Part shown: in pieces, positions 1 through 30,813 of the stretch
How the letters are laid out: each line of letters opens with the position of its first letter
Position numbering within the stretch: the stretch's first letter is position 1
Source: a virus
Virus record (IMG/VR): IMGVR_UViG_3300003873_000040
Coordinates: 1-30,813 of that record
DNA: 30,813 nt
Strand: one strand, 5' to 3'
Translations under genes and position numbers: made by a program
Notes under the pieces: generated by a model
What the model saw: the letters and a program-made list of their open reading frames with translations, nothing else
The model's database searches: none
Told to the model about the DNA's origin: nothing

Positions 1-96
1 CCGACAACGTACTAACGAAATAGCGGACGCGGTATTAAATAAAGGCTTCGACCCTTTCGACCCCGCAAACTATCAACAACAACCCGACATAATAGA
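1..96. repeat. Left copy of 96-bp terminal direct repeat (circular overlap)
   Basis: These 96 bases are identical to the last 96 bases of the window. The reading frame of the replication-initiator-like gene continues smoothly from one copy into sequence beyond the other. The repeat therefore most likely marks the overlap of a circular or circularly permuted assembly and not a true second copy. Joined at the repeat, the genome is 30,717 bp. Confidence 0.93.
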
Positions 97-127
97 CGCT
101 CAAATAGAAGGGGGCGAAAATGTTTAA
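1..127 (+). CDS. Replication-initiator-like protein, 3' end of the gene that starts at 30143
   Basis: The open frame entering the left edge (codons from base 2) ends with TAA at 125-127. It is the C-terminal part of the gene beginning at 30143. Joined across the 96-bp overlap, the full gene is 702 nt and encodes 233 residues. This fragment is a hydrophilic tail with DPFDPANY and a run of three glutamines, and ends in GGENV. It overlaps the next gene by 8 nt, which suggests translational coupling. Homology to DUF6291-type phage replication proteins rests mainly on the N-terminal part at the other end of the window. Confidence 0.85.
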   Translation, partial: RQRTNEIADAVLNKGFDPFDPANYQQQPDIIDAQIEGGENV

Positions 128-671
128 TCTACGCAACGAAACTATAAAGGCAATTTTAACAGAATTAAAAATAGATAATAGCCCTTTTAATATCGAAGTA
201 GTGCGGGAGTTTATAGAGCATATAGCAGACGCAGAACTAAAAGCGTTTTATATGGCATTATTTAAAGACGGGGCTAAAATATTTAACGGCTTAGACCGTG
301 TAGCAAAAGTAGCCGAACAATTTAAGCCCGAAGGAATAAACTTAATAGAAGAACGCGCTAAGAAACTTATAGCACTAATCGAAGCAACTAATACAGCTAT
401 AGACGAACAAGCTAAAGCTAAAGGCGAAGACTTTGTAAAAATGGTAAAGTATGGAATAAAGCTAACGCTACCAAAAGAAGATATAGCTATTTTAGACTTA
501 GTAAAGCCGTATAGCAATCACAAAGAGTTAATAATCAATATTAGACATTATCAAACGTCTACGGATAGTTTACGGGAGTTTATAAACGCTATTAAATATT
601 TCGATAAAATTAGCAGTACGGAAGCGATAGAAAATAAAACTATCAACGCTTTACAGATAAGAAAGGCTTAG
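120..671 (+). CDS. Early-region protein of unknown function (183 aa)
   Basis: I do not recognise this family. The protein is 183 residues, mostly helical in appearance and rich in Lys, Glu, Ile and Ala, with no signal peptide or membrane segment. The start is supported by a GGGGG-containing ribosome site just upstream, and the gene overlaps the end of the initiator-like gene by 8 nt. It stops one base before the next small gene. Its place directly after the initiator gene and before the recombination genes suggests a part in DNA replication or an accessory early role, but nothing in the sequence shows a catalytic motif. Confidence 0.8.
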   Translation: MFNLRNETIKAILTELKIDNSPFNIEVVREFIEHIADAELKAFYMALFKDGAKIFNGLDRVAKVAEQFKPEGINLIEERAKKLIALIEATNTAIDEQAKAKGEDFVKMVKYGIKLTLPKEDIAILDLVKPYSNHKELIINIRHYQTSTDSLREFINAIKYFDKISSTEAIENKTINALQIRKA

Positions 672-672
672 T

Positions 673-810
673 ATGATTAATTCTATAATAATAGCTATAG
701 GCGGGCTTATATTGTATTCTTTAATACTATGGGGTGTTTCAAAGATAAAGCGCCGTATAAGAGCTAAGAAGAACTTAAAAGCTAATAGCTATATGCTTAT
801 GTTTTTATAA
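673..810 (+). CDS. Small single-pass membrane protein (45 aa)
   Basis: A 45-residue ORF starts one base after the previous stop, with AAAGG upstream of the ATG. Residues 3-22 form a hydrophobic segment of Ile, Leu and Gly ending in Trp. A strongly basic stretch of Lys and Arg follows (residues 24-36). The positive-inside rule would place the C-terminal part in the cytoplasm. I do not recognise a family. Small early membrane proteins in phages often act in superinfection exclusion or host takeover, which is only a possibility here. Tight packing with its neighbours and the ribosome site support it as real. Confidence 0.65.
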   Translation: MINSIIIAIGGLILYSLILWGVSKIKRRIRAKKNLKANSYMLMFL

Positions 811-835
811 ACATTAAAATAAGAAAAGGTTAAAT

Positions 836-1351
836 ATGAAAACTACTACAAAAATATCACGGGGCGTACTTAAAGATTTTATGGTACTTAATTTCGCGGG
901 CGCATTAATGGAAATAAGTTTACAAGATAACGACGCAGTAAAGCGCGACAATGACAATAAAAACTATAAGCTAAACAAACGCATAGATAGACGCATAGGA
1001 ACGCTTAGAAGCAAAACAAAAGAAGTATTAAGACAAATAGGTAACAAGTGCGCGGAAGACGAAGCTAAATACACTAAGAAGCGCTTATACGTAATAGGCG
1101 AACTATTGCACTATTTTGAAGAAAAAGACATAGAAGTAAACTTAGAGTTATTAGCACTTAATATTTTATTTGTAAATTTTACGCCTAACGAACGACAAAA
1201 CAAAACGATACACGAAGATTTTTTATTTTTCACTAAAAGCGAAAACTATTTAGATGAAAACGCGGATTTAATCGGAAGCACATTATCGGACAAAGTAGAA
1301 ACGGATATGTTTTTATTAGCTTACGACTGTATAAATAAACTAAAGGCTTAA
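836..1351 (+). CDS. Early-region protein of unknown function (171 aa)
   Basis: I do not recognise this protein. It has 171 residues with a very basic central part (about residues 35-85) that could contact nucleic acid, and a more acidic, hydrophobic C-terminal half that looks helical. There is no membrane segment and no obvious catalytic motif. The start is well supported by the AAGAAAAGGTTAAA leader, which precedes several first-in-group genes of this phage. It stops two bases before the GTG of the next gene, so the two are probably translated together. Confidence 0.8.
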   Translation: MKTTTKISRGVLKDFMVLNFAGALMEISLQDNDAVKRDNDNKNYKLNKRIDRRIGTLRSKTKEVLRQIGNKCAEDEAKYTKKRLYVIGELLHYFEEKDIEVNLELLALNILFVNFTPNERQNKTIHEDFLFFTKSENYLDENADLIGSTLSDKVETDMFLLAYDCINKLKA

Positions 1352-1353
1352 AA

Positions 1354-1602: not shown

Positions 1603-1611
1603 CTAATATAT

Positions 1612-1694: not shown

Positions 1695-2243
1695 ATGAAA
1701 GCTTTAGAAATTAGAACAATCATTAAAAATGACTTAACACCGCGTTACGAAATTGCACGCGATAGTGTAGTCGCATACGTTACAAAAGAAGCGCATAAAT
1801 TACAAGCGCTTCGTAAAGAGTTTAGTAGCTTATCACAAATGGAAAACGGTAAAGAGTGCAAAAGGTGGCGCGAACTTTATATAGGTTTCTATGGTTATTA
1901 TGATAAAGAAGCTAAAAAACAAGTAGACGGAACTTTCTACAATGGAATAGCTAAAAAATATCGCGGTGTAATTGCTTCTTATACAGACAAAGCAATTATA
2001 AAACATTATACGAAAGAATATAAAGACCTTTTAAAAGATTTAGTAGAAGCAATTTATACAGATATAAAAGGGCTTAAAGCTAAAGACATAAAAATAGGAC
2101 AAAGCGAACACGATATAAACTTTACACTTACTTTTAAAGATGATAAAAAAAGAAGCTATACAATAAACACTATTGTAGCGGGCGGGTTTATTCAAGTTAT
2201 ACATAATAGAACTTTAAAAACTTTACATAAGGGGGTTATATAA
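1695..2243 (+). CDS. Early-region protein of unknown function (182 aa)
   Basis: This is the first gene after element A and is probably co-transcribed with the exonuclease gene that follows; its last base overlaps that gene's first. The protein has 182 residues. Residues 1-65 look helical and charged, and residues 135-182 look like beta strands. I see no recognised motif. Its position immediately before a RecE-like nuclease and a Bet annealing protein suggests a recombination accessory role. This is inference from neighbourhood only. Confidence 0.8.
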   Translation: MKALEIRTIIKNDLTPRYEIARDSVVAYVTKEAHKLQALRKEFSSLSQMENGKECKRWRELYIGFYGYYDKEAKKQVDGTFYNGIAKKYRGVIASYTDKAIIKHYTKEYKDLLKDLVEAIYTDIKGLKAKDIKIGQSEHDINFTLTFKDDKKRSYTINTIVAGGFIQVIHNRTLKTLHKGVI

Positions 2244-3061
2244 TGAAAGCATACCAAGAACTAACCGACGAAGAATATAACAATATAGGCGGATATAGAA
2301 GTACGGGTATAAAAGAGATACTTAAATACGGAATGTTCGACTATCTAAAGCCCGAAGGCGTTAAGCGTGGCGGTGTAGCATTAGACTTCGGTATCTATTT
2401 TCATACCTTAGTGCTAGAAGAAGAAAAAGTAAGCCTTAATTATGCTTTACCGTTAGAATTAGAATACCCCGAACTAAAAGGGTTAAATAAAAACACTAAC
2501 GCATATAAAGACGCTAAAAAGATTTATGATTTAGAAAATATAGACCGCACTATTATTTCAATAGATGATTATAAATTAGCTAAAAGTATGCGTGAAGTAG
2601 TTATGAATAGATACGGTAAAATTATCGAACGTGCAAAACGTGAAGTAGTCTTTAGCTATACGGACGAAAACAAGATTAAGCGTAATTGTAAAGTAGATAT
2701 ATACGACGAACTAAGCGGAAATATGTTTGATTTAAAGTCAAGTGGCGAAGAAATATATTTAGATAATATTCGCTATGTATCTTCTAAATATGGCTATGAT
2801 ACTTCGGGGGCGTGGTACTACGACACGATTAAGGGAGCGGGGGGCGACGTTTCGGGCTTCGGGTTATTGTTTAGCAGTAAAGCAGACTATAGAGCGCTTT
2901 TATATAAGCCTTCTAACTTCTTTTTAGAAATAGGACGCGCAAAGTATGGCGTAGCTTACGAAAAGATATTACGATACGAAAAAGAAGGAATTATAGACGA
3001 CGCGTTTATAGATTTAGACCCGTCTTATAATGAGTTAAAAAAATACGGTTACGTGGAGTAG
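2243..3061 (+). CDS. RecE-like PD-(D/E)XK exonuclease (DUF3799/exonuclease VIII type)
   Basis: This is a probable 5'-3' double-strand exonuclease that makes 3' single strands for the Bet protein encoded about 650 bases downstream. The catalytic pattern of this nuclease family is visible: H54 in IYFHTLVLE, E134 in KREVVF, D152 in CKVDIY, then D163 and K165 in FDLKSS, with a tyrosine-rich helix around 185-193. At 272 residues it matches the C-terminal nuclease core of RecE and the short phage versions. It lacks RecE's long N-terminal region. The start overlaps the previous gene by one base behind a GGGGG ribosome site. The pairing with Bet strengthens the assignment. Confidence 0.85.
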   Translation: MKAYQELTDEEYNNIGGYRSTGIKEILKYGMFDYLKPEGVKRGGVALDFGIYFHTLVLEEEKVSLNYALPLELEYPELKGLNKNTNAYKDAKKIYDLENIDRTIISIDDYKLAKSMREVVMNRYGKIIERAKREVVFSYTDENKIKRNCKVDIYDELSGNMFDLKSSGEEIYLDNIRYVSSKYGYDTSGAWYYDTIKGAGGDVSGFGLLFSSKADYRALLYKPSNFFLEIGRAKYGVAYEKILRYEKEGIIDDAFIDLDPSYNELKKYGYVE

Positions 3062-3066
3062 ATAAA

Positions 3067-3321: not shown

Positions 3322-3458
3322 AATGTGTATATCATAGAAGCTACAAAAGCTTACTAACCGAAAAAATAGGACACGCCGAAGCATATAAAAAAATTACGAA
3401 TAGGCTTAACAAACAATTTAAAAAGTATTTTATTAACAAATCCTATAATATAATATAG
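3318..3458 (+). CDS. Small basic protein (46 aa)
   Basis: A 46-residue ORF starts in an ATGA overlap with the preceding stop, a common sign of coupled translation in this genome. It is strongly basic (many Lys, Arg and Tyr) with no membrane segment. Its stop codon lies inside the palindrome-like box TCCTATAATATAATATAGGA of the next regulatory element, so its 3' end and the promoter share sequence. No family is recognised, and the coding call rests on the overlap and the open frame. Confidence 0.5.
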   Translation: MKCVYHRSYKSLLTEKIGHAEAYKKITNRLNKQFKKYFINKSYNII

Positions 3459-3513
3459 GATAGTTTAAGGTTAATAGGTATATACTTTTAAATCTCAAAG
3501 AAAAGGTTAAATT
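3441..3513 (+). promoter_or_regulatory. Early promoter/operator element B
   Basis: The element begins with an interrupted inverted repeat, TCCTATA and TATAGGA separated by six bases (3441-3460). It continues with GTTTAAGGTTA and the box GGTATATACTTTTA (3477-3490), and ends with the leader AAAGAAAAGGTTAAA before the ATG at 3514. The 13-base ATAATATAGGATA (3450-3462) and the GGTATATACTTTTA box are shared exactly with element A. It probably drives the signal-peptide gene, bet and the genes after it. It may bind a phage regulator at the symmetric boxes. Confidence 0.68.
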
Positions 3514-3711
3514 ATGAAAAAGATATTACTTTTAGTATTAGTTGCTTCGGCTTTATTTTCGGCTACTTATGAAGTGAAAAAGAAAGCCCCTAAATGTAAA
3601 GCGGGCTTTATAGAAAAGCAAGTACAGACGAATAAAACTTACTATTCGTACCAAGTTAAAAGATATAAAACGGTATGTGTAGAAATCAAACAAGAAAAGG
3701 TTAAAAAATGA
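3514..3711 (+). CDS. Small exported protein with signal peptide (65 aa)
   Basis: The first 17-19 residues form a classical signal peptide: MKK, a Leu/Val/Ala core, and a likely cut after FSA. The mature part is about 47 residues, very basic, with two cysteines (in KCKAG and TVCVE) that could form a disulfide in the periplasm. The gene is the first after promoter element B and overlaps bet by four bases. An exported protein within a recombination operon is unusual. Blocking superinfecting phages at the envelope is a reasonable hypothesis with no motif to prove it. Confidence 0.78.
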   Translation: MKKILLLVLVASALFSATYEVKKKAPKCKAGFIEKQVQTNKTYYSYQVKRYKTVCVEIKQEKVKK

Positions 3712-4466
3712 GTAATGAATTACAATTAACAAAAGACGAAAAGTTAGTTATTAAAAATAACTTTTTTCCAACAAATACAACACCCGCAGATATGGCGTTT
3801 TGTATGGGTGTAGCTAATCAATTCGGATTAAACCCGATTTTAAATCAGATTTATTTTGTAGGTAGAAAAGCTAAAATTAATAATCAATGGGTAGAAAAAG
3901 TTAGCCCTATGGTAGGACGCGACGGGTTTTTAACTATTGCGCATAAAAGTGGTAAATTTGCGGGTATTGAAACTAAGACTACTATTAAGCAAGTGCCTAC
4001 GTTTGACGGTAACGAATGGACGGAAGAACGCGACTTAGTGGCTATTTGTAGCGTATATAGAACGGACACGGAACGCCCTTTTATCGTAGAAGTAGCTTTT
4101 AAAGAGTACGCGGGCAAAACACGCGACGGACAATTAACTAAGTTTTGGAAGGAAAAAGGCGCGACTATGCTTAAAAAGGTAGCCGAAAGTCAATGTTTAC
4201 GTAAAGCGTTTAACGTAAGCGGTATATATTCCGAAGAAGAAATAAACGATATTAATGTAGTACCGAAAGTCGAAGAAGTGGTAGAAACGACTACGGACGA
4301 CGTAACGGCATTAATTACCGAAGATATGAGTAATCAAAATGTAAATATGGTTACGGGCGAAGTATCGCAACACACACAACCCGCGGGCGAAGAAGTACCC
4401 GCATATATGAGCGACGAAGTAGCGGAAAACCCGCAACAACAAACATTAGAATTAGATATAGACTAA
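3708..4466 (+). CDS. bet: Bet/RecT-family single-strand annealing protein
   Basis: This anneals complementary single DNA strands in phage recombination, partnered by the RecE-like exonuclease at 2243. It belongs to the lambda Bet branch of the RecT superfamily. Visible hallmarks are TPADMAFCMGVANQFGLNP (residues 25-43), QIYFVGRKAK (47-56), MVGRDGFL (68-75) and the basic helix MLKKVAESQCLRKAF (154-168). Residues 187-252 form an acidic, Gln-rich tail that probably varies freely and may contact SSB or other partners. Length (252) is close to lambda Bet (261). The ATG is preceded by AAGAAAAGGTTAAA and overlaps the previous gene by four bases. Confidence 0.95.
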   Translation: MSNELQLTKDEKLVIKNNFFPTNTTPADMAFCMGVANQFGLNPILNQIYFVGRKAKINNQWVEKVSPMVGRDGFLTIAHKSGKFAGIETKTTIKQVPTFDGNEWTEERDLVAICSVYRTDTERPFIVEVAFKEYAGKTRDGQLTKFWKEKGATMLKKVAESQCLRKAFNVSGIYSEEEINDINVVPKVEEVVETTTDDVTALITEDMSNQNVNMVTGEVSQHTQPAGEEVPAYMSDEVAENPQQQTLELDID

Positions 4467-4477
4467 AGGGCTAAAAT

Positions 4478-5473: not shown

Positions 5474-5666
5474 GAAGGAAACTAAAAAGGCGGGTAGCTA
5501 TAAAATGCGCCCGTCAATAAAAGCGGAAGCTATGAGATTTATCGCGCAAGATGAAAACATAAAAAGCTTTAATGACTTTTTAGAAGTTGCTACAGTATCT
5601 TATATTAAAGCACAAAGAAAAATCCCGCGTGAAAATGAAAATCAAGGTAAGTTAGAATTTGATTAA
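5466..5666 (+). CDS. Small basic protein, possible ribbon-helix-helix DNA-binding protein (66 aa)
   Basis: This 66-residue protein starts inside the end of the DUF1351 gene. Residues 11-50 read like a short strand followed by two helices (SYKMRPSIKAEAMRFIAQ, then SFNDFLEVATVSYIKAQ). That spacing is expected of Arc/ParG-type ribbon-helix-helix proteins, which bind DNA as dimers. The N-terminus is Lys-rich. Its stop codon directly abuts a GTATATAC box, the first of an inverted pair, so it could regulate those boxes. The fold is inferred from pattern only. Confidence 0.65.
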   Translation: MAKKETKKAGSYKMRPSIKAEAMRFIAQDENIKSFNDFLEVATVSYIKAQRKIPRENENQGKLEFD

Positions 5667-5737
5667 GTATATACCTTTAAGCTTCTTATTATGTAAAAAG
5701 GTATATACTTTTATAAATCAAAGAAAAGGTTAAAAAA
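5665..5737 (+). promoter_or_regulatory. Early promoter/operator element C with inverted pair of GTATATAC boxes
   Basis: Two copies of the GTATATAC box lie 34 bases apart in opposite orientation: AAGTATATACCTTTAA at 5665-5680 and AAAAAGGTATATACTTTTAT at 5695-5714. The second copy matches elements A and B almost base for base and is followed by the same AAAGAAAAGGTTAAA leader. The paired arrangement looks like an operator for a dimeric regulator, possibly the ribbon-helix-helix-like protein encoded just upstream. Confidence 0.68.
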
Positions 5738-5860
5738 ATGGTTTACAAATCTACACTATGGCATATTATGAATTTAATATTGCTAGAAAATCCAACACTA
5801 ACGGCGGGCGAAGGCGCTCAAGTAGTACGCAATATCAAACTAGCACTAAGGGGGCTATGA
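5738..5860 (+). CDS. Small protein of unknown function (40 aa)
   Basis: This 40-residue ORF has the standard strong leader AAGAAAAGGTTAAAA directly before its ATG. That makes it a better candidate than the in-frame start at 5758 in another frame, which has no ribosome site. The protein has a hydrophobic first half (LWHIMNLILL) and a basic C-terminal end. Its stop overlaps the ATG at 5857 as ATGA, so it is probably coupled to the membrane protein that follows. Function is unknown. Confidence 0.55.
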   Translation: MVYKSTLWHIMNLILLENPTLTAGEGAQVVRNIKLALRGL

Positions 5861-7153: not shown

Positions 7154-7277
7154 ATATTGTAACAACGGCGAAGCAAAAGAAGAATTTAAAAAGTGGGGCA
7201 ATTATTGTTCTAAGACGTGTACCAACAAAGGCGAAAAGCAAAAGGAAGGTAAAGAATGTTTAATAAAACGATTTTAG
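7143..7277 (+). CDS. Small zinc-finger-like protein (44 aa), TTG start
   Basis: This short ORF encodes CEYC near the N-terminus and CSKTC about 16 residues later, a four-cysteine layout typical of a small zinc-binding finger. It begins with TTG behind GAAAGGAA and overlaps the gene before by 11 bases and ssb by 22. Heavy overlap is common in this region, and the cysteine layout argues that the frame is coding. The rest is Lys/Glu-rich. A start codon other than ATG lowers certainty. Confidence 0.55.
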   Translation: MKCEYCNNGEAKEEFKKWGNYCSKTCTNKGEKQKEGKECLIKRF

Positions 7278-7822
7278 TAGGGAACTTAACCCGCGATATA
7301 GAACTAAGATACGCGCAAAGCGGTAGCGCAATAGCTAACACGGCTATAGCAACTACGCGCAAGTTTACGCAGAACGGCGAAAAAAAAGAAGAAGTTTGTT
7401 TTATGGATATAACTTTTTTCGGGCGTAGTGCTGAAATAGCTAATCAATACTTACGCAAAGGTAGCAAAATTTTAGTAGAAGGGCGTATTAAGTTTGATAC
7501 GTGGGTAGCGCAAGACGGTAGCAAAAGAAGTAAGCATAGCGTTATAGTTGAAACTATGCAAATGTTAGATAGTAAACCCGCAGACGGTCAAAGTAATTCA
7601 CATACTAATCACAATGTGAATAACCAACAACAAGCGCAAGCGTATCAAGCACCACAACAAGGCGCGGATAACTACAGCTACGGCGGACGTAACCATAATG
7701 CACAACAACAACCGAACAACGTACCGACTGAATATCAAGACCGTAACGGGAATACAACACAAAGACCACCCTCTAACCAAATACCCGAAATAGATGTAGA
7801 CGAAGAAGAAATACCCTTTTAA
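7256..7822 (+). CDS. ssb: Single-stranded DNA-binding protein
   Basis: SSB coats single-stranded DNA during phage replication and recombination and recruits partners through its tail. The OB fold occupies residues 1-105, with family hallmarks NKTILVGNLTRDIELRY (3-19), FMDITFFGRSAEIANQYL (49-66) and the glycine-rich strand KGSKILVEGRI. A Gln/Asn-rich flexible linker follows (about 110-175). The C-terminal tip DVDEEEIPF is the acidic protein-interaction tail used by bacterial SSBs, so host partners can probably bind it. Length (188) is usual. A GGAAGG ribosome site precedes the ATG. Confidence 0.97.
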   Translation: MFNKTILVGNLTRDIELRYAQSGSAIANTAIATTRKFTQNGEKKEEVCFMDITFFGRSAEIANQYLRKGSKILVEGRIKFDTWVAQDGSKRSKHSVIVETMQMLDSKPADGQSNSHTNHNVNNQQQAQAYQAPQQGADNYSYGGRNHNAQQQPNNVPTEYQDRNGNTTQRPPSNQIPEIDVDEEEIPF

Positions 7823-8578: not shown

Positions 8579-9841
8579 ATGTGTAAACTACCGTGTTTAG
8601 ATTTAGCAGAAATACGAGGATATATAAAACAATATAGCCCCGCCTTCGTACCTATGTTTCGCGACGAAAGCCGTTATAGCATTATATGGGGCGGTGCGGG
8701 TAGTGGTAAATCTCACATAGTAGCCCGTAAGCTTCTTTATAGACTAATTGACGAAAAGCACGTTAAGCATAACTTCTTAATCATACGTAAAGTAGACCGC
8801 ACTATTAAAAGGTCGGTTTTTACTCTAATGAAAAATCTTATAACCAAGTGGGGCTTATATAATGACTTTAGTATAAACCTAACCGATAAGACTATGATAT
8901 ACAAGCCTACGGGGTCGCAATTTATGTTTAGTGGATTAGACGACGTAGAAAAGCTTAAATCTATTGAAGGCGTAACGGGGATATGGATAGAAGAAGCTAC
9001 GGAACTACAGCAAGAAGACTACGAACAATTAGACCTTAGACTACGTGGCGACACGGGAGCATATAAACAAATCATATTAACGCTTAATCCTATTAGTGCC
9101 GAACATTGGATAAAAAAGATATTTTTTGATAGCGGTTTACCGAATGTTTTTACACTAAAGACTACTTATTTAGATAATCAATTTATAGACGCGGAATATA
9201 AAGCCGTATTAGACGCTAAGAAGATAACTAACCCACGCTACTATAAAATCTACGCGTTAGGCGAATGGGGTACGGCGGAAGGCTTAGTATTTAATAACGT
9301 AAAGTGTAGGCTTATCCGTGAAGCTGAAATAAAACCTTTAGAGTGTATACAAGGTTTAGACTTTGGTTATAGCGTAGACCCTACAGCGTTTACGCATAAC
9401 TACATAGACCACGTTAATAAAAAGTTTTATATCTACGACGGCTTTTATGAAAAAGGATTATCAAATAGTCAAATAGCTAAAAAGCTTATAGATTTAAGAG
9501 TACATAAGCACGTAATAACGGCGGATAGTGCCGAGCCTAAAAGTATAGCTTCGATTAAAGCTAAAGGCGTACCAAGAATAAGAGGTGCGAAAAAGGGTAA
9601 AGATAGTATTAACGCGGGTATAGATTTTCTTTCAGATTATGAGATTATTATTAACGCGCATTTAGTAGAAGTAGAAAAAGAGTTTTTAAATTATTCGTGG
9701 GCGGTAGATAGAAACGGGAAACAATTAAATAAACCTATAGACGATTATAACCACGCTATAGATAGTATTCGCTATAGTGCTGAACATTTAGCGTTAAGAC
9801 GTGGGAAGTATGCAAGGGTTAAAAAACCTTCGGGCGTATAA
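8579..9841 (+). CDS. terL: Large terminase subunit (packaging ATPase and nuclease)
   Basis: This is the motor that cuts and pumps DNA into the prohead. The ATPase half carries a Walker A GGAGSGKS (residues 38-45), a Walker B IWIEEA (135-140) with its catalytic Glu, and a coupling motif near LTLNP (167-171). The RNase-H-like nuclease half has D261 in GLDFGYS, D316 in TADSAEP and D395 in NHAIDSIRY. It belongs to the terminase_3 / PBSX-like group, and 420 residues is standard. It starts two bases after terS ends. Confidence 0.97.
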   Translation: MCKLPCLDLAEIRGYIKQYSPAFVPMFRDESRYSIIWGGAGSGKSHIVARKLLYRLIDEKHVKHNFLIIRKVDRTIKRSVFTLMKNLITKWGLYNDFSINLTDKTMIYKPTGSQFMFSGLDDVEKLKSIEGVTGIWIEEATELQQEDYEQLDLRLRGDTGAYKQIILTLNPISAEHWIKKIFFDSGLPNVFTLKTTYLDNQFIDAEYKAVLDAKKITNPRYYKIYALGEWGTAEGLVFNNVKCRLIREAEIKPLECIQGLDFGYSVDPTAFTHNYIDHVNKKFYIYDGFYEKGLSNSQIAKKLIDLRVHKHVITADSAEPKSIASIKAKGVPRIRGAKKGKDSINAGIDFLSDYEIIINAHLVEVEKEFLNYSWAVDRNGKQLNKPIDDYNHAIDSIRYSAEHLALRRGKYARVKKPSGV

Positions 9842-9882: not shown

Positions 9883-11250
9883 ATGACACTATTTGAATAT
9901 ATGAAAACACCGAAGTATAAGAACTATATCCGTAACCGTGAGATATTTGAAGAACGAAGCGCGGGTATCTTTAGGGCTACAGTCAATAGCCGTATTAAAT
10001 TAGAATTAATGGGAAGCGGTGCGATAGTACAAAACGACACCGTATTTAGTGGATTTAATGGGGGTAAGGGTAATTATTCAAGCATTAGCGACCTTATCGT
10101 ACCGTCTAATCTTCTATCTTCTATCACTTCTACATATATTAGTTATGCTACAAATGGGCGCGTACTGTTTGATAAAAAAGAAAACGAATATATGTTACAA
10201 AAGGTTAAGACCGCAATTAAAGAACAATCTATAGGTGGTAGTTGTCTTCTAAAATTAGTAGAAAAAAACGGACAACCTTATATTAATATCTTTAACGCGA
10301 TTAGCTATTATGCCGTAGAAGATGAAGACATACAAGACATTAGAAGCGCCTACGTAATATTTAATCTAGTAGAAGAAACGGACAACGCGGAAACGTATCT
10401 ATTAGAACGACACGAAGGTAAATTAGTAACATACAAGTATCTAAAAAGAGTTACAGAAAAAGACGGCGTAACGGTGGCATATATAGACTGTAAAATAGAA
10501 GGCTTAGAACAAAAAGAAGACGAAAAAGGCGTATGGTTTAGCTATGAAACCTTAGAAAAGCCCGTAGTATCTGAAATAACAAACTTAGTCTTTAGTGGCG
10601 AAAGTGATTATACGGACGATAACATAGCTTTACTTCGTGAAATTGTAGTTACAAACACTATCAATTCACAAACTTTTGACAAAATATCTAACCCGATTTT
10701 AGCACTACCCGAAGAAAGTATAGAATATGACGAAAACGGGAACGCACGCGTAAACCTTAGTGATAGAACTATTATTATACGTGAAGGCGGAAGCAAGCCC
10801 GAACAAATTAGCTTAGAAAGTCGTATAGAACAATCAGACCAACACCGCACAAACTTAGAAGGTCAAATTTTTAGTAGTTTAGCGGTTAATACAATCGCTT
10901 TAGGGGTAAGTGGCGAAGGAAGTCTAAGCGGTATAGCTATAGAACGTATGCTAAGTAATACTTCGGCACGCGTAGAAGAAAAGCGTAAAAATGTAGCTAA
11001 AGCCTTATTTGATTTAGCGGGCGTAGAAATTGATTTTAGCGACCCTATAGGGGATAACTACAAAGAAGAAGTAACTACAGCTAAAACAGCAGTAGACGGC
11101 GGATTTATGAGTATTAAACAAGCGTGTATCGAAATAGGCAACGAAGACGACTACGCACAAATCATAAAAGAAGCTAAAGCGCAAGTTACGGGAGATTATG
11201 AAGGTTTTACAGACGATAAAAAAACACCCGAAGAAGGCGACGTTAAATAA
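9883..11250 (+). CDS. Portal protein
   Basis: The portal forms the dodecameric ring at one vertex through which DNA enters and leaves. Assignment rests on position (terL, portal, minor head protein), length (455) and the SPP1 gp6-like layout. An N-terminal beta/alpha wing contains ISDLIVPSNLLSSITSTY. A central stem region follows (SIGGSCLLKLVE), then a C-terminal helical crown region (LSGIAIERMLSNTSARVEEKRKNV, cited here only as residues about 350-373). The tail is acidic. It shares its last base with the next gene. Confidence 0.92.
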   Translation: MTLFEYMKTPKYKNYIRNREIFEERSAGIFRATVNSRIKLELMGSGAIVQNDTVFSGFNGGKGNYSSISDLIVPSNLLSSITSTYISYATNGRVLFDKKENEYMLQKVKTAIKEQSIGGSCLLKLVEKNGQPYINIFNAISYYAVEDEDIQDIRSAYVIFNLVEETDNAETYLLERHEGKLVTYKYLKRVTEKDGVTVAYIDCKIEGLEQKEDEKGVWFSYETLEKPVVSEITNLVFSGESDYTDDNIALLREIVVTNTINSQTFDKISNPILALPEESIEYDENGNARVNLSDRTIIIREGGSKPEQISLESRIEQSDQHRTNLEGQIFSSLAVNTIALGVSGEGSLSGIAIERMLSNTSARVEEKRKNVAKALFDLAGVEIDFSDPIGDNYKEEVTTAKTAVDGGFMSIKQACIEIGNEDDYAQIIKEAKAQVTGDYEGFTDDKKTPEEGDVK

Positions 11251-12926
11251 TGGCTAAAAATGTAGGTTATTGGAAAGACGAACATAATAAACTACATAGA
11301 CGTGTAGATAAAGACGCGGTACATTTAGACGCTATTTATCGTAAAAAACTAAACGAAGTAGAAGGACAAATAAAAGACTTCTATAAAAAATATGCGGTAG
11401 ATAATGAGATAACCGAAGATATAGCGCGAAGCCTTTTAACACCTAAAGAGTTTAGAGTATTTAACGAAAAGCTTAGGGAGTGGATAAAGTCGGGTAAATA
11501 TAGTAATGACGCTTCTTTTATGGCTTCTTTGGATAGATTAGCGGGTACTTCAAAGATTAACCGCCTACAGCGCTTAGAAACTGAATTAACGGCTAAAATA
11601 TCGGAACTAAAAAGCGAACAAATCATAGCTACAGAAAATAGCTTAATAGATACGTACAAAGAAACGGAAGACGCTACGGCTAACGTGGTAGAAAGTCAAT
11701 TTAAGCAAGTAAGCGAAGCAAAGATTAGAACGGTAATTAATTCAGAGTTTCAAGAACGAAGATTAAGCGGTAGAGTATGGACGCATAGAAGCCATTTAAG
11801 AACTAAGCTTATATCTACACTTACGGACAACTTTATAGAAGGTAAAAACTTTAATGATTTAAAGACCGATTTAAAAAGAAGTTTCGGGGCTTCGGATTTT
11901 GAAGCAAGGCGTTTACTTATTACAGAAACGGCACGTATCAATAGCATAGCAAAAGAAAACAGCTATAGCGAAGCGGGATTTACACATTATCAATATATAG
12001 CGGTAGACGACGATAGAACTACGCCTATATGTAACGGCTTAGACGATAAGATATTTAGATTAGAAGATATGAAAGTAGGAGTAAACGCACCACCTACACA
12101 CGTATACTGTAGAAGTACGATAGTACCGTATGAAGTGGGCGAAGAAGATATACAAGTACCGCCTAAAAAAGTAGCGCCTAAACCTAAAGCAAAGAAAGCA
12201 CCAACTAAAAAGCCTATTAAAAAAGAAGCGCCTATAGACTTCGGATACAATGGACGTTTTAACGGGTATGTAAAAGATATTACGCCTACAGCTAAAAAGC
12301 TTATAGAAGATACGCCGAAGCCCGCACTATTAAAGCATAATAGAACGGCTTATTATACGGCTTATAAAGACGTTTCGCGCGGGGAAGTTAGAACTACTAA
12401 AGATAAAGAAACTTTCTTACACGAATACGGGCATTACATAGATCACGTATTAGCGCAAAAAGACGGCGGAACTAACTACTATAGCAAAAGATTAGAAACT
12501 TCGGCTATTGCAGACGCTAAACTATACGGAACTTCTACTATACGCGGTAAAGGACAATTTGAGCGCGAATATATAACTATAGGTAAAGATAAGATAGACG
12601 AAATTACCGACGAACTTTATACCTTTGGCGAAAAGACAACTAAGCGCGGTAGAAAATGGAACGGCTATATAGTTAAAGAAAAACGATACGAAGCCGTAAG
12701 CGATATTTTTGATAGTTTAACGGGTGGTAGTTTTATGGAAAAACGCTACGGGATATACGGACACGGTAGCCGATACTATCAAAAAACGAATATGAAGCAA
12801 GCGGAAAACTTCGCTAATCTATTTAGTGCTTATGCTATAGGCGGTAAAGACTACGAAATAGTTAAGCATTATTTCCCTAACTTAACTAAAGAGTTTGAAA
12901 AAATTATGAAGGAAGCGACAAAATGA
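11250..12926 (+). CDS. Minor head protein (Mu gpF/SPP1 gp7 type) fused to a zincin-like metallopeptidase domain
   Basis: Residues 1-300 contain a Phage_Mu_F head-morphogenesis domain. Its signature lies around residues 225-295: ETARI, then YIAVDDDRTTPICNGLDD, then PPTHVYCRSTI with the conserved His and Cys. A Pro/Lys-rich linker (about 304-327) leads to a second domain with HEYGHYIDH (391-399), a canonical HExxH zinc-peptidase motif. A downstream AENFANLFSAYA helix (518-529) has Glu519 as the likely third ligand. At 558 residues it is longer than plain gp7 proteins. It may act as a capsid-processing or injected peptidase; the substrate is unknown. Confidence 0.88.
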   Translation: MAKNVGYWKDEHNKLHRRVDKDAVHLDAIYRKKLNEVEGQIKDFYKKYAVDNEITEDIARSLLTPKEFRVFNEKLREWIKSGKYSNDASFMASLDRLAGTSKINRLQRLETELTAKISELKSEQIIATENSLIDTYKETEDATANVVESQFKQVSEAKIRTVINSEFQERRLSGRVWTHRSHLRTKLISTLTDNFIEGKNFNDLKTDLKRSFGASDFEARRLLITETARINSIAKENSYSEAGFTHYQYIAVDDDRTTPICNGLDDKIFRLEDMKVGVNAPPTHVYCRSTIVPYEVGEEDIQVPPKKVAPKPKAKKAPTKKPIKKEAPIDFGYNGRFNGYVKDITPTAKKLIEDTPKPALLKHNRTAYYTAYKDVSRGEVRTTKDKETFLHEYGHYIDHVLAQKDGGTNYYSKRLETSAIADAKLYGTSTIRGKGQFEREYITIGKDKIDEITDELYTFGEKTTKRGRKWNGYIVKEKRYEAVSDIFDSLTGGSFMEKRYGIYGHGSRYYQKTNMKQAENFANLFSAYAIGGKDYEIVKHYFPNLTKEFEKIMKEATK

Positions 12927-14272: not shown

Positions 14273-15088
14273 ATGGGTTTAGATAATAACAAAATTACGA
14301 TTTTTACGGACGTTATGGACACGAAGCTACAAGAGAAATCTATCGTACCTTCAATCGCAAGAGGTGTTTATAAGGGTCAAGTTGTACGCGGTGGTACTGT
14401 TAAGATTTTAGGTACGGAAGACGTAACTATCGGTCAATATAACGGAACTATCACACATCAAGCTATGGACGGTACGGCGCAAGACGTAGCGATTAGCAAA
14501 AAACCGTATTTCTCTATTAAATTAGGTGCGGACGATTTAAGTCAAGTGCCTACAAATGAGTTAAACTTTTTAACGGGTAAAGCTTCGGACGGTTTAGCGC
14601 TAGACGTAGATACTCAATTAGTAGCTTTAGTTTCTAAAGCAGTAGTTACAGTTACGGGCGCTATTGCTACGGTAGATAGTGCATTTACGGGATTAGCTAC
14701 GGCTTTCGATAATGCTAACGTATCTATGAATGATAGAGCGGTAGTGTTAAGCCCTTCGGTAGCTAACAAGCTTGTAGAGTTACAAGGTAAAGCACTAAGT
14801 GGCGAAAAATCGGCTAATATCGTTTACGAAGGTTACTTAGGTAAGTATATGGGTATCGAGATTTTTAAATCAAATAAAATCGGCTCAACTCTTACAGTTG
14901 CTAACTGTGTAGGTGTAGATATGTCGGCTTTAGTTCTTGCTAAGTCTTACGAAGAACTACGCGAAGCAACAAGCGCGGACTTCTTCGGTGTAGCACTTCA
15001 AGGGCTATTAGTTTACGGTATCGACGTAGTAGAAACTCAAACGGGTGCTTCTGATAGAATTATCGGTTTTGATATTGACGAAGCGTAA
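14273..15088 (+). CDS. Major capsid protein
   Basis: This is the main shell protein, assigned by its position after scaffold and its HK97-fold-like content. It has an N-terminal arm with MDTKLQEKSIVPSIARG, extended strands around residues 38-80, an A-domain-like centre (VVLSPSVANKLVELQG, 158-173) and a C-terminal strand region ending in FDIDEA. At 271 residues it is at the small end of the family. The codon choice looks more relaxed than in the early genes, as expected for a highly expressed gene. A terminator-like hairpin follows its stop. Confidence 0.9.
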   Translation: MGLDNNKITIFTDVMDTKLQEKSIVPSIARGVYKGQVVRGGTVKILGTEDVTIGQYNGTITHQAMDGTAQDVAISKKPYFSIKLGADDLSQVPTNELNFLTGKASDGLALDVDTQLVALVSKAVVTVTGAIATVDSAFTGLATAFDNANVSMNDRAVVLSPSVANKLVELQGKALSGEKSANIVYEGYLGKYMGIEIFKSNKIGSTLTVANCVGVDMSALVLAKSYEELREATSADFFGVALQGLLVYGIDVVETQTGASDRIIGFDIDEA

Positions 15089-17413: not shown

Positions 17414-17862
17414 TTACTTCGACAATGATAGAAAACTCTATAGTAGCACTATTAAACGCGAAATATCCCGAAGCCGATATTTTTAGACGTAATGCTATGC
17501 AAAGTAAAGATAAGGCTATATTTATAGTAAATATAGACCTTCAAGGACAAACAGCAAATAAAGACTATCAACGTAAAGACTTAGAAATTATCGTGCAATA
17601 CTACGAAGATGATAAGATAGCATTTAATAGAAATCTTAATGCTATACGTGATACTTTAGTAAGTGAAATATTTATTAATTCTATTCCTATACTAGATGAA
17701 ACTAAAAATGTGGTAAAATACATTTTAGTTAAGTCGAGTAGCGTAACGGTAGTAGATGATATTTTATCGCTTAGAATGATTAGCGACTACGTAGACGACG
17801 TAGTAGTAACTAATCCAACTTACGACCTTATGGGCGTTTTACATTTAAACAAGGAGTGTTAA
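17410..17862 (+). CDS. Tail terminator/completion protein (XkdJ-like, probable)
   Basis: A 150-residue protein with an alpha/beta pattern typical of tail terminators: an N-terminal helix (MIENSIVALLNAKYP), then strands (AIFIVNIDLQGQ, LEIIVQYYED), a helix (NLNAIRDTLVSEI) and late strands. Terminators cap the tube and stop its growth. It lies directly before the sheath gene, as in PBSX. Its ATG overlaps the previous stop by four bases. Confidence 0.75.
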   Translation: MITSTMIENSIVALLNAKYPEADIFRRNAMQSKDKAIFIVNIDLQGQTANKDYQRKDLEIIVQYYEDDKIAFNRNLNAIRDTLVSEIFINSIPILDETKNVVKYILVKSSSVTVVDDILSLRMISDYVDDVVVTNPTYDLMGVLHLNKEC

Positions 17863-17864
17863 TT

Positions 17865-18920
17865 ATGGGTTTACCTATTTTTTCAATCAATTTTCAAACG
17901 AAAGCGATAGAAGCTATTGGATTAGCTACGCGTGGCTTTGTGGCTTTAGTTATTAAGGACGCTACACAAACGGCGGGTACTTATACATATAAAAACTTCG
18001 CGGAAGTACCTACGGGGGCTTTTGATACTTCAAATTATGATTTTATCGAAAGTATTTTTAAGGGTAGTCCGACAAAAGTTAAAGTTATTTCGGGCGCTAT
18101 TGACGCGGTTTTCGCAGACGTACAAGCGTCAATCTTACAAGGTAGCCCCGACGTGGATTACTTAGTAGCACCTTCTTTTAGTGCTGAAAACACGGCTATT
18201 ATTTCTTTTATTACAGATAAGAGAACAAACGCGGGCGCAAAAATCAAAGGCGTTTTAGTTGCTTCGGGTAGCGATAAAGAGTATATTATCGACGTTAAGG
18301 TAACGGGCGCAGTAGATGAAAACGCGGTAGCATTACCAAATCAAGAAACACGGGTAGCGGGAATAGTTGCGGGATTAGACCCTACACGAAGCGCGACTTA
18401 CTTCGTAGTATCGGAAGTAGTAGACGTAGACGCTTTCGTAGACCCCGACGTAGAAATAGACGGCGGTCATTTAATTTATATTAATGACGGTGCTAAGGTT
18501 AAAATCGCGCGCGGGGTTAATAGTTTTGTATCTACTACACCAACAAAAGGCGCTTTGTTTACCAAGATTAAAAACGTCGAAACTATGGATATGATTAGTT
18601 ACACTATCCGCCAAGTAGTAGAAGACGACTACGTAGGTAAGTTTACGAATAGCTTAGACAATAAAAACCTTATCGTTACGGCGGTAAATCAGTTTTTATC
18701 GGAATTAGCTAAACAAAACTACCTTAACCCTTCTTATAATAATGTTTGTACGTTAGACCTTCAAGCGCATTTAGACTATGCAGAACTTAACGGCGTAGAT
18801 ACTACGGGATTTAACGAAACGGACATTAAGAAAATTGATACGGGCGATAATCTTTATTTGAATATTTCTTGTAGATTACTAGACACGATAGAAGACGTTA
18901 CTATCGAAGTCTTTATTTAA
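17865..18920 (+). CDS. Contractile tail sheath protein (XkdK-like)
   Basis: This sheath protein makes the tail a contractile (myovirus) one. I chose the ATG at 17865, eight bases after a perfect AAGGAG, over the in-frame GTG at 17856, which lies inside that site and within the previous gene. The protein has about 351 residues and shows the XkdK-type order: an N-terminal strand region, a variable outer domain (about 95-200), and a conserved C-terminal part with FTNSLDNKNLIVTAVNQFL. The short length matches PBSX-type sheaths, not long T4-like ones. Confidence 0.92.
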   Translation: MGLPIFSINFQTKAIEAIGLATRGFVALVIKDATQTAGTYTYKNFAEVPTGAFDTSNYDFIESIFKGSPTKVKVISGAIDAVFADVQASILQGSPDVDYLVAPSFSAENTAIISFITDKRTNAGAKIKGVLVASGSDKEYIIDVKVTGAVDENAVALPNQETRVAGIVAGLDPTRSATYFVVSEVVDVDAFVDPDVEIDGGHLIYINDGAKVKIARGVNSFVSTTPTKGALFTKIKNVETMDMISYTIRQVVEDDYVGKFTNSLDNKNLIVTAVNQFLSELAKQNYLNPSYNNVCTLDLQAHLDYAELNGVDTTGFNETDIKKIDTGDNLYLNISCRLLDTIEDVTIEVFI

Positions 18921-23985: not shown

Positions 23986-25041
23986 ATGAGTGATATTATA
24001 CTAGACCAAAAGACAAAGTTTTTAGACGCTTTAGCTGATACTTACGACAAAACGGAAGGTACGGTACTAAATGACTTAGCAACGGCTAACGCTATAGCTA
24101 ACGAGCATTTTTATATCGAATGGGCTAATTTAAAAGATAGCTTAGACTACAGAATAGCAACGGGCGACGATTTGACTACCTTAGCTTTAAACTTTGGTAT
24201 ATATCGCAAAGAAGCTTCTTACGCGGTAGGATATGTTACCTTTAGCGGAACGGCGGGAACTTCTATACCACAAGGCTTCGTAGTCGCAAATGATACCGTA
24301 GAATATGTTACAAACGCACCCGCACTATTAGACGCTACGGGCGCGGTCACTACATTAGTTACGGCTACAGTAGCGGGGACGGTAGGAAATACCCCCGCTA
24401 ATACTATAGTAAATATTCCTATCTCTATGGTAGGTTTAGATAGTATTACTAATGGCTTATCTTTTTCAGACGCGCAAGACGAAGAAACGGACGAAGAATT
24501 ACGCGAAAGAATAGACTATGTTTTAAGATACCCCGCTACAAGTGGTAACGCTAATCATTATTTCCAATGGGCTACGGAAACTTCGGGAGTAGGTGGCGCG
24601 CGTGTAATTGTTAAGCCTTCGGGTGCGGGTAGTATGAAAATAGCTATAGTAGATACAAATAACGACACGGCGCAACAACCGCTAATAGATAGTGTTTACG
24701 ACCATATTATAGAAAATAGACCCGCAACGTCGGGAATTTTAGAAGTAGTTAGCGCTACACCTTTAAATATAGACGTAGCAGTAACGGGCGTAACTATTGA
24801 CAGTACGAGCGGATTAGGTACGCAAGAAGTTTTAGACGCGATTATCGCTAATATTACGGCTTATGTAAATAGTTTCGCTATGGACGCTACGGAAGTGCCA
24901 TACGTAGGAGTAGTTAAGGTAGTTATTCAGACCGACGGAGTAGCAAACTATACGGGCTTAACTCTAAACGGTAGTAATGCTTCTATACCTATTGTAGATA
25001 TAGAAATACCTAAAGCTAATAGCATAACGGCTACGGTGTAA
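23986..25041 (+). CDS. Baseplate J protein (XkdT-like)
   Basis: A 351-residue baseplate wedge protein of the P2 J / T4 gp6 / XkdT family. The signature DEETDEELRERI lies at residues 165-176, preceded by SVGNTPANTIVNIP-like wording at about 130-145 (GTVGNTPANTIVNIP). The N-terminus is helical (FLDALADTYDKTEGTVLNDL). Strands dominate after residue 200. J proteins form the ring that opens on contraction. It begins two bases after the wedge gene ends. Confidence 0.95.
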   Translation: MSDIILDQKTKFLDALADTYDKTEGTVLNDLATANAIANEHFYIEWANLKDSLDYRIATGDDLTTLALNFGIYRKEASYAVGYVTFSGTAGTSIPQGFVVANDTVEYVTNAPALLDATGAVTTLVTATVAGTVGNTPANTIVNIPISMVGLDSITNGLSFSDAQDEETDEELRERIDYVLRYPATSGNANHYFQWATETSGVGGARVIVKPSGAGSMKIAIVDTNNDTAQQPLIDSVYDHIIENRPATSGILEVVSATPLNIDVAVTGVTIDSTSGLGTQEVLDAIIANITAYVNSFAMDATEVPYVGVVKVVIQTDGVANYTGLTLNGSNASIPIVDIEIPKANSITATV

Positions 25042-25044
25042 GTT

Positions 25045-26447: not shown

Positions 26448-26462
26448 AAAAAAGGCTAATAA

Positions 26463-27192: not shown

Positions 27193-27196
27193 AATA

Positions 27197-27425: not shown

Positions 27426-27436
27426 ACGATACAAAG

Positions 27437-27940: not shown

Positions 27941-27946
27941 TACCTT

Positions 27947-28803: not shown

Positions 28804-28804
28804 A

Positions 28805-29287
28805 ATGGAAAATTTATTAGCAAGAAATAAAACCGCAAAATATCCATATAGTAAAAGTTCTTTAGCAAAACTAGAAGGGGTACACCCCGATATGGTAAAT
28901 TTCGCTTTTGAGTTAGCGAATGTAATCGACTGTAAAATAGTTTACGGCGTTAGAACGGACGAAGAACAATTAGCACTATATAAAAGCGGTAGAAGTTCTT
29001 TTGACGGAATTACGAAGCGCAGTAACCACCAAATACAAAAAGACGGCTACGGCTATGCTTTAGATATTCTACCTTTACCCGTAGGCGTTAATATGTACGA
29101 CGACAAAGACGAAGAAAATAAGCTACGGTGGGCGCAGTTTGACGGGTTTTGTTTTGCTATTGCGTATAAGTTAAGTATGAATATTAAAACGGGTTTTAAA
29201 TGGCGTAATAATATGATGAAATCACTACAAAGAAACGAAAAAGATAACACTTTACCCGACGGTAATCATATAGAGCTTTTATTATAA
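28805..29287 (+). CDS. Endolysin, M15 (D-Ala-D-Ala carboxypeptidase / L-Ala-D-Glu peptidase) type
   Basis: A 160-residue zinc peptidase that cuts peptidoglycan. The M15 pattern is visible: H75 in RSNHQ, D87 in GYALDI, and H155 in GNHIELL, with YGVRTDEEQLALYKSGRS (47-64) as the family's substrate region. There is no signal peptide or membrane segment, which fits a holin-dependent endolysin. The start lies two bases after the holin ends. Confidence 0.9.
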   Translation: MENLLARNKTAKYPYSKSSLAKLEGVHPDMVNFAFELANVIDCKIVYGVRTDEEQLALYKSGRSSFDGITKRSNHQIQKDGYGYALDILPLPVGVNMYDDKDEENKLRWAQFDGFCFAIAYKLSMNIKTGFKWRNNMMKSLQRNEKDNTLPDGNHIELLL

Positions 29288-29329
29288 GATTTTTTATGAT
29301 ATACTTCTAATATCCTTAAAGGTGTCTAT

Positions 29330-29363
29330 AAGCAAGGCTTTAATTAACCTTTTCGCCTTGCTT
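29330..29363 (+). terminator. Terminator-like hairpin after the endolysin
   Basis: AAGCAAGGC pairs perfectly with GCCTTGCTT around a 16-base AT-rich loop. Only three T follow, so the terminator would be weak unless helped. It lies about 43 bases after the endolysin stop and probably ends the late transcript. Confidence 0.6.
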
Positions 29364-29400
29364 TGGATATTATGAACTTTTTAAGTAAATATTAATTCTA

Positions 29401-29424
29401 TTTAGTATATACTTTTTCTTTATT
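29401..29424 (+). promoter_or_regulatory. Promoter-like GTATATAC box before the replication genes (element D)
   Basis: TTTAGTATATACTTTTTC repeats the GTATATAC box and T-run of elements A to C. TATACT could be the -10 for a transcript that begins near 29420 and passes through the structured element into the GIY-YIG and initiator genes. Confidence 0.55.
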
Positions 29425-29506
29425 TCTTAGCCTAGCACTACTAGGCATTTTTAACACTTCACTTCGGAGTGTTAGGCTAAGAGATTATTAGGGTGTTTAG
29501 TAGTGC
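29425..29506 (+). ncRNA. Pseudoknot-capable structured element
   Basis: Helix 1 pairs TCTTAGCCTA (29425-29434) with TAGGCTAAGA (29473-29482). Helix 2 pairs GCACTACTA (29435-29443) with TAGTAGTGC (29498-29506). The two interleave, so together they form a pseudoknot on one continuous 19-base strand. Between them lies a small hairpin, AACACT/AGTGTT (29453-29473). A competing hairpin CCTAG/CTAGG (29431-29445) would break both. Whether RNA or DNA is the active form is unknown. Confidence 0.55.
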
Positions 29507-29553
29507 ATTCCCCCACTCTTAAAATTTTAATTGTTAATCACTAAAGGAAAAAA

Positions 29554-30156
29554 ATGTATATTGAAATACATAACCACGCCGATTTTGAGCAAAAAACACT
29601 ATATTTTAAATTAAACAACGCTTTTAATATGGATATGGAAAACGAACTTAACCAAAAGTTACAAGGAATATACGCAATATATTCTAATAATATTTGCTTA
29701 TATGTAGGACAAAGTAAAAACCTTGCTAGTAGAATAGCTACACACATAAGAGGAAAATACGAAAAATCTACAGAAATATATCTATGGAATATCGAAGACA
29801 TAGGCTTTAATGATTTTTTAAGAAGAAGTAAGGCTATACAACAATCAATATTAGATAATAGCGAAAAGTTATATATGCAGAAGCTAAAACCTATAGATAA
29901 TGTAAATATAGATATGGACTTTAAATTAAATGAAGACGAAAGCGCCTTATTAACTAACCCTTCTATAATATTAAGCCTACAATTCCACGCTTTAAGAATT
30001 ACTGATAATGTATCTAATATTCAAGAAGAAATAGAAATATCAGTAGATTATCTACATAAAGAAAAAGAAATATCCGACAAGCAACATACTAAAATAAAAT
30101 CAATTTTAAAAGAATATGAATTAATTTTTAAAGGCGGATTTAATGAAAATAGATAA
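29554..30156 (+). CDS. GIY-YIG nuclease family protein
   Basis: Residues 36-112 carry the GIY-YIG nuclease fold: QGIYAIYSNNICLYVGQSKN (GIY at 38-40, YVG at 50-52), R60 in LASRIATH, and E104 in NSEKLYMQKLKP. Residues 1-35 and 120-200 are extra helical parts with no known domain. It is not next to an intron, so it is probably a free-standing or repair-type endonuclease, possibly cutting host or competing DNA. Codon usage has far fewer CG pairs than in the structural genes. It overlaps the initiator gene by 14 bases. Confidence 0.88.
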   Translation: MYIEIHNHADFEQKTLYFKLNNAFNMDMENELNQKLQGIYAIYSNNICLYVGQSKNLASRIATHIRGKYEKSTEIYLWNIEDIGFNDFLRRSKAIQQSILDNSEKLYMQKLKPIDNVNIDMDFKLNEDESALLTNPSIILSLQFHALRITDNVSNIQEEIEISVDYLHKEKEISDKQHTKIKSILKEYELIFKGGFNENR

Positions 30157-30813
30157 AAAAGCAATCAATTACTATTATTCATTTTTTGAAGTATCAAAAG
30201 AATTAAATCAAAAACAATTTTATGATTTTAATATGGCTATTTATAAAGTTATGTTTTTTGAAGAACATATAGAAAGTATAACTTTTGAAGATAAAATGTT
30301 ATCTATTTTGTGGAAGTCCGTAAAACATAGCATACAAGCAAGTGTTAAAGGGTTTTGTGATAAAAAATTAATCCCTTATGATGATGTTTTTACACCCCTT
30401 AGCAAGGGTGTAGATAAGCCCCTTACTAACAAACAAGAAGGACAAGTACAAGAGAAAGGACAAGTACAAGAGAAAGAAGAAGCCCCTTTTTCTTTTTCTC
30501 TTAAATCACAAAGTCAAATAACATCACTATCAAAAGAATATATTACTAACTTAGAAAATTATATAAATTCTTTAGGATATGGGAATATGACTTTTCAAGA
30601 TTTTAAAGACGGGTGCGAAATAAAGGGATATAAATATAAAAACTTTAAATTGGCATATAACAAGTGGAATAAAAATAATACAGCTACTACAAAACCTACA
30701 AGCTTCAAAGAACAAGACCGACAACGTACTAACGAAATAGCGGACGCGGTATTAAATAAAGGCTTCGACCCTTTCGACCCCGCAAACTATCAACAACAAC
30801 CCGACATAATAGA
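30143..30813 (+). CDS. Replication-initiator-like protein (DUF6291-like N-terminus), 5' part
   Basis: The ATG lies inside the end of the GIY-YIG gene, and the frame runs off the right edge to continue at base 2 of the window. Joined, it gives 233 residues. Residues 1-75 resemble DUF6291 (YYSFFEVSKELNQKQFYDF, then ILWKSVKHSIQASVKGF). A linker with two GQVQEK repeats follows, then a domain with FKDGCEIKGYKYKNFKLAYN, as in phage initiator or helicase-loader proteins. Such proteins open the phage origin, which often lies inside their own gene. Composition shifts to CG-rich near the 3' end. Confidence 0.82.
   Translation, partial: MKIDKKAINYYYSFFEVSKELNQKQFYDFNMAIYKVMFFEEHIESITFEDKMLSILWKSVKHSIQASVKGFCDKKLIPYDDVFTPLSKGVDKPLTNKQEGQVQEKGQVQEKEEAPFSFSLKSQSQITSLSKEYITNLENYINSLGYGNMTFQDFKDGCEIKGYKYKNFKLAYNKWNKNNTATTKPTSFKEQDRQRTNEIADAVLNKGFDPFDPANYQQQPDII
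30392..30475 (+). repeat. Hairpin and tandem 18-bp repeats inside the initiator gene (possible origin)
   Basis: ACACCC and GGGTGT form a hairpin (30392-30411). Then GGACAAGTACAAGAGAAA occurs twice in tandem (30440-30457 and 30458-30475), followed by a CT-rich stretch. Repeats in the linker of an initiator gene followed by a low-melting stretch match the layout of the lambda origin in gene O. Simple protein-repeat expansion is the alternative. Confidence 0.45.
30718..30813. repeat. Right copy of 96-bp terminal direct repeat (circular overlap)
   Basis: These bases are identical to 1-96. See the left copy: the initiator gene frame is open through both copies, so circular closure is the best reading. 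Confidence 0.93.

Follow-up and report, generated by a model that had tools for sequence, protein, structure and literature searches.

The virus genome recorded in IMG/VR as IMGVR_UViG_3300003873_000040 (30,813 nucleotides, analyzed over its full length and hereafter called the window) has been purged of about 20 short sequence motifs. The loss is near-total, the set of missing motifs switches between colinear relatives, codon choice is forced by the base that follows, and the dipeptides that cannot be encoded without a missing motif are themselves gone. Very probably, this contractile-tailed phage evades host restriction by having no targets. The agent would be restriction-modification in the hosts, and the hosts, whether one or many, would belong to the Campylobacterota. 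Avoidance of restriction sites is an established strategy (PMC6286503), with extreme examples in haloviruses that affect many motifs at once (PMC7230728). What appears to be new is that avoidance reaches the proteins; we found no report of a dipeptide effect in the open-access literature, although priority is not certain.

Short motifs missing from the window

An earlier note on this DNA, made from the letters alone, had claimed that GATC, GANTC, and CATG are almost entirely missing and, after a less careful check, that CCGG and GGCC are absent too. Both claims held, and the loss is stronger than was reported. GATC occurred once, and CATG, GANTC (all four forms), CCGG, and GGCC not at all, against order-1 Markov expectations of 49.7, 26.3, 58.2, 53.6, and 45.7, respectively. 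The purged set comprises CATG, GATC, GGCC, CCGG, GANTC, GCNGC, GGNCC, CCNGG, GGNNCC, CCAG, CAGG, GATGC, CATCC, CCATC, GTYRAC, and AACGTT, among others. Further zeros by the same expectation (observed/expected) were GCNGC 0/67, GGNCC 0/31, GGNNCC 0/31, CCAG 0/65, CAGG 0/65, GATGC 0/19, CATCC 0/13, CCATC 0/13, GTYRAC 0/25, AACGTT 0/23, CTTAAG 0/18, GAACC 0/31, and CCNGG 0/30, the last not being independent evidence in the window, as each of its forms includes CCGG, CCAG, or CAGG.

Tens of occurrences were also expected for GATC, GANTC, and CATG under a codon-shuffle null, in which synonymous codons were shuffled with every protein and the codon usage preserved. Its expectations were 69.4 for CCAG, 59.1 for CAGG, 47.5 for CATG, 42.2 for GATC, 37.2 for GANTC, 35.5 for GATGC, 32.0 for CCATC, 21.7 for GGCC, 20.8 for CATCC, 19.6 for GTYRAC, 19.1 for GCNGC, 17.0 for CCGG, 13.8 for GGNNCC, and 13.6 for AACGTT; all 14 motifs were observed zero times except GATC, seen once. 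Losses were all-or-none for each motif, and both halves of the genome showed the same loss. Unrelated motifs of the same composition were normal. Among control palindromes, AGCT (171/162), GTAC (98/116), CGCG (139/138), GCGC (126/118), and ACGT lay near their order-1 expectations; the earlier statement that other palindromes are common thus stands for GTAC, CGCG, and GCGC but not for TCGA, which was reduced (42/103). In a survey of four-base patterns, gapped ones included, the few that were strongly depleted were CCAG, CTGNC, CAGG, CATG, GATC, GANTC, GGCC, GCNGC, CCGG, and GGNNCC. CTGNC was seen 4 times in the window against 86 expected, and was similarly low in two relatives described below.

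The words that are depleted are not random but are palindromes or sites of known enzymes, less clearly so for CCAG, CAGG, CTGNC, CCCAA, and GAACC. Eliminated 4-mers included 4 of 16 palindromes and 2 of 120 non-palindromes (p = 0.002), and eliminated 6-mers 7 of 23 and 25 of 1217 (p = 7e-7); known enzyme sites were enriched among eliminated 5-mers (7/73 vs. 9/398, p = 0.006). By the criterion with which Rusinov et al. (2018, PMC6286503) define elimination (an observed/expected ratio under 0.1), adapted here to Markov expectations, 17 non-nested enzyme sites were eliminated in the window and 19 and 22 in its two relatives. The same criterion gave 7 for T7, 6 for Staphylococcus phage K (50 kb), and 0–3 for most other compared sequences. 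Rusinov et al. likewise describe loss of host targets as a passive anti-restriction strategy of prokaryotic viruses; the window differs in having so many eliminated sites in one 31-kb genome, non-palindromic ones included, and in the effect on its proteins, of which we found no mention there (PMC6286503). The HF1-group haloviruses also lack several motifs jointly (GATC, CTAG, and 21 six-base palindromes), losses ascribed to diverse sequence-specific defences, but in the available part of that study the focus is on palindromes and no protein-level effects were found (PMC7230728).

Codon choice and dipeptide content

Within genes, the following base dictates the codon. Proline before G was CCC in 56 of 56 cases and elsewhere in 5 of 152, and histidine before G was CAC in 35 of 35 and elsewhere in 15 of 76. 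Before GG, threonine was always ACG (37/37) and alanine always GCG (52/52); glutamine before G was always CAA (79/79), serine following Asp or Glu was always AGT or AGC (50/50), and none of 149 codons ahead of ATG ended in C. If codons were used independently, the 14 core motifs would arise in 364 codon pairs; one was seen, the single GATC.

For exactly five dipeptides, every possible codon pair creates a forbidden motif, namely Ala-Ala (AA), Gly-Pro (GP), Pro-Gly (PG), Trp-Pro (WP), and Trp-Met (WM). In the window, AA occurred 0 times against 54.8 expected (log10 P −24), GP 0/12.9, PG 0/12.9, WP 0/1.2, and WM 0/0.8, while AG (52/43) and GA (51/44) were normal in the automatic open reading frame (ORF) set. 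Ala-Ala is absent from the window's proteins because the pair cannot be encoded free of forbidden words; the genetic code leaves any phage that lacks GCNGC entirely without Ala-Ala. At aligned positions, none of 80 Ala-Ala pairs of homologues was retained in the window, a count that does not represent 80 independent events, since the relatives partly overlap (L052 and L053 are near duplicates). By comparison, AG was retained at 38 of 95 positions, GA at 34 of 74, and AL at 57 of 113, and LA also fell within 40–50%. The usual replacements of Ala-Ala (SA, GA, VA, TA, and AV) preserve one alanine.

These patterns suggest how the genome may have come to its present state. The hosts would between them carry about twenty restriction specificities, mostly Type II, including IIS- and IIG-like ones, and over long evolution mutations removing a site would have been kept and those creating one lost. 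Most sites would have been removed synonymously, which would leave the codon set by the next base, and sites with no synonymous way out would have been removed by amino-acid changes, at the cost of the five dipeptides. Site avoidance is usually viewed as cheap and synonymous; here it is near-total for about twenty motifs and alters proteins, and the cost of evasion becomes measurable residue by residue.

The rule linking motifs to dipeptides also holds in an unrelated phage, as the counts from Staphylococcus phage K (NC_005880) imply. Its first 50 kb contained no GCNGC, no GGNCC, and 30 CCNGG sites, with AA at 0/20.1, GP at 0/16.8, and PG at 18/16.9; the next 50 kb contained 3 GCNGC and no GGNCC, with AA at 3/35.1, GP at 0/33.0, and PG at 15/33.0. 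Like the window, phage K has eliminated GATC, which it is known to lack (PMC6532042), and GCNGC with Ala-Ala, and GGNCC with Gly-Pro, are near-absent together, although fewer motifs are purged. We therefore consider it highly probable that restriction can dictate protein sequence genome-wide, with pressure against GCNGC, GGNCC, and CCNGG leading to loss of Ala-Ala, Gly-Pro, and Pro-Gly, and that dipeptides missing from a virus reveal its hosts' enzymes in general. The dipeptide test is applicable to any viral proteome, and a list of purged motifs can be read as a fingerprint of an uncultured host's defence repertoire, predicting host methylomes to seek.

Colinear relatives and the source of the pressure

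Searches with the portal, head, and RecT proteins yielded two colinear relatives in IMG/VR, G001 (31,371 bp, 79% identical to the window over aligned bases) and G004 (32,452 bp, 72%); a terminase search yielded mostly distant phages. CATG, GATC, GGCC, GCNGC, CCNGG, GGNNCC, GTYRAC, and AGTACT are at or near zero in all three genomes, CCNGG being independent evidence in G001, where CCGG is abundant. Other motifs switch, with counts in the window, G001, and G004 of 0, 62, and 138 for CCGG; 0, 12, and 20 for TTCGAA; 0, 0, and 51 for GAACC; 0, 0, and 12 for AACGTT; and 0, 5, and 34 for GANTC. Depletion thus tracks lineage, not composition, as CCGG, TTCGAA, and GAACC go on and off between relatives. 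In alignments with G001, the window conserves none of 40 CCGG sites of that relative, whereas most control motifs were retained at 25–60%, and 30 of the 40 now read CGGG or CCCG, single-base escapes. The alternative middle-base changes would give CAGG or CTGG, or CCAG or CCTG, all forbidden, and several constraints therefore act jointly. Judging from these alignments, mutational bias could not produce such a pattern of escapes. Dipeptides in the relatives were AA 1/49, GP 0/13, and PG 0/13 in G001, and AA 0/41 and PG 0/19 in G004. A Gly-Pro excess in G004 (41/19) stems from a tandem-repeat region at its contig ends (4–247 and 31543–32419, reversed coordinates), which holds 41 of the phage's 44 GGNCC sites; the other forbidden motifs are absent genome-wide.

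A compositional or mutational bias, or a codon preference of phage or host, could in principle deplete words without any restriction, and some trinucleotides, CTC and CAG among them, are indeed low, with CTG, CTC, and CAG codons rare. However, codon-preserving shuffles still predict tens of each motif, CCGG and TTCGAA are normal in so close a relative as G001, codon choice hinges on the next base, and Ala-Ala is missing while AG and GA are not. We consider this explanation extremely improbable. The all-or-none losses, the preference for palindromes and enzyme sites, the motif switching, and the cost in codons and residues support the earlier suggestion that hosts equipped with several restriction systems exerted selection over a long time.

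Several points weigh against restriction as the agent, beginning with the fact that the evidence for it comes from the phage side. CCAG, CAGG, and CTGNC are non-palindromic, and the enzyme list includes CCAG and CAGG only within CCDG, the site of a modification-dependent enzyme; Rusinov et al. found elimination almost exclusively at orthodox Type II sites (PMC6286503). NrS phages of Nitratiruptor, related to the window by several proteins, do not avoid GCNGC, though methylation of this motif has been reported for their Nitratiruptor host (PMC9723563). This methylation implies, on the other side, that a GCNGC specificity exists within the Campylobacterota.

To our knowledge, no common Type II enzyme matches CTGNC, CCAG, or CAGG. 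These motifs, with CCCAA and GAACC, may be targets of Type IIG, IIS, or III enzymes or of other motif-reading defences. One version of the latter is that some of the five are avoided as protospacer-adjacent motifs (PAMs) of clustered regularly interspaced short palindromic repeats (CRISPR) systems, or because of defences that resemble bacteriophage exclusion (BREX) or are modification-dependent (Type IV). They are not typical Type II sites, CCAG, CCGG, and CCTG together make up the modification-dependent CCDG, and depletion of PAMs has been reported in phages (PMC4246573). CCDG does not behave as one unit, though, as G001 has almost lost CCAG and CAGG yet carries CCGG at a normal level, and we rejected it as a single target; on balance we regard such an origin for some of the five motifs as rather unlikely.

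Within the restriction explanation, it seems somewhat probable that the missing motifs add up the repertoires of many strains or species encountered one after another by a phage of broad host range, no single host carrying all the systems. The relatives have a core of losses in common but diverge at individual motifs, which is the expected outcome if strain repertoires vary, and G001 and G004 retain partly depleted motifs (GANTC 5/62 and 34/98); the data here do not separate one host from many, and this is a sub-case of host restriction in general.

Host, defence genes and genome content

Sequence similarity of the phage proteins makes a host within the Campylobacterota likely. The single-strand binding protein (SSB) is closest to plasmid SSBs of Campylobacter, Malaciobacter, and Sulfurovum (up to 70%) and to SSBs of Nitratiruptor phages (63–66%), and homologues of 6 window proteins occur in Nitratiruptor phage NrS-4 and of 5 in NrS-2. 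NrS-2 to NrS-5, whose hosts are Campylobacterota, thus share the SSB and several small proteins with the window but are of siphovirus morphology and carry an integrase (temperate), and NrS-2 and NrS-3 additionally encode a methylase and a nuclease resembling BglII (PMC9723563); by the elimination criterion, NrS-2 has lost 0 sites and NrS-4 only 1. The earlier note had pointed to Helicobacter and its relatives. Its hint at the phylum may be right, but Helicobacter is not singled out. Helicobacter pylori phage KHP30, the sole Helicobacter phage compared, has a different eliminated set (ACGT is eliminated and GCNGC present 30 times) and was not among the best protein matches listed for the window. 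A scan of a genome collection yielded one contig only, in a Robiginitomaculum bin (L067), with a 69% terminase match and motif counts mostly near expectation; it was set aside as host evidence, being possibly a mis-binned phage.

In keeping with the earlier remark that no anti-restriction gene stands out, Pfam, PHROG, and PADLOC scans found no methylase, nuclease-inhibitor, or other recognized anti-restriction gene among the scanned window ORFs, a set that left out a few small ORFs, and anti-restriction proteins of a novel type lie outside the reach of these scans. A D12 methylase search of the window was also negative. These negatives do not support protection by the phage's own methylases or anti-restriction proteins, and they are consistent with long selection through host restriction.

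The first and last 96 bases of the window are identical, which marks it as a complete, circularly permuted genome (or a complete contig) with about 30,717 bp of unique sequence. Genes for portal, major head protein, tail sheath, baseplate, and endolysin (Table 1) identify a contractile-tailed phage.

Table 1. Features of the window, with positions and strand.
Feature	Position	Strand	Remarks
End repeat, copy 1	1..96	+	96 bp, identical to 30718-30813
Exonuclease VIII-like protein	2243..3061	+	PHROG 412, E 6e-24
RecT/Bet-like annealing protein	3708..4466	+	PHROG 252, E 7e-38
SSB	7256..7822	+	best plasmid/phage matches in Campylobacterota
Terminase large subunit, PBSX-like	8579..9841	+	
Portal protein	9883..11250	+	PHROG 64/533
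Mu F-like head protein gene	11250-12926		holds the sole GATC
Only remaining GATC	12441..12444		within the GAT CAC pair (Asp-His) of the Mu F-like head protein gene
Major head protein	14273..15088	+	92% identical to G001; without Ala-Ala
Tail sheath	17856..18920	+	PHROG 1480, E 2e-88
Baseplate J/wedge protein	23986..25041	+	PHROG 6, E 2e-55
Endolysin	28805..29287	+	PHROG 465
End repeat, copy 2	30718..30813	+	96 bp, second copy

A protein with a GIY-YIG nuclease domain is encoded near the genome end (29554–30156); no counterpart was seen in the ORF list of G001, which has HNH-like and similar ORFs instead. G001 encodes a protein that by eye resembles phosphoadenosine phosphosulfate reductase (L049 3942–4916), for which no counterpart was noticed in the window's ORFs. 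Three direct repeats in intergenic DNA, about 40–90 bp long and up to 93% identical (1604–1705, 3440–3527, and 5661–5740), also occur between genes in G001 and G004 and are possible regulatory elements.

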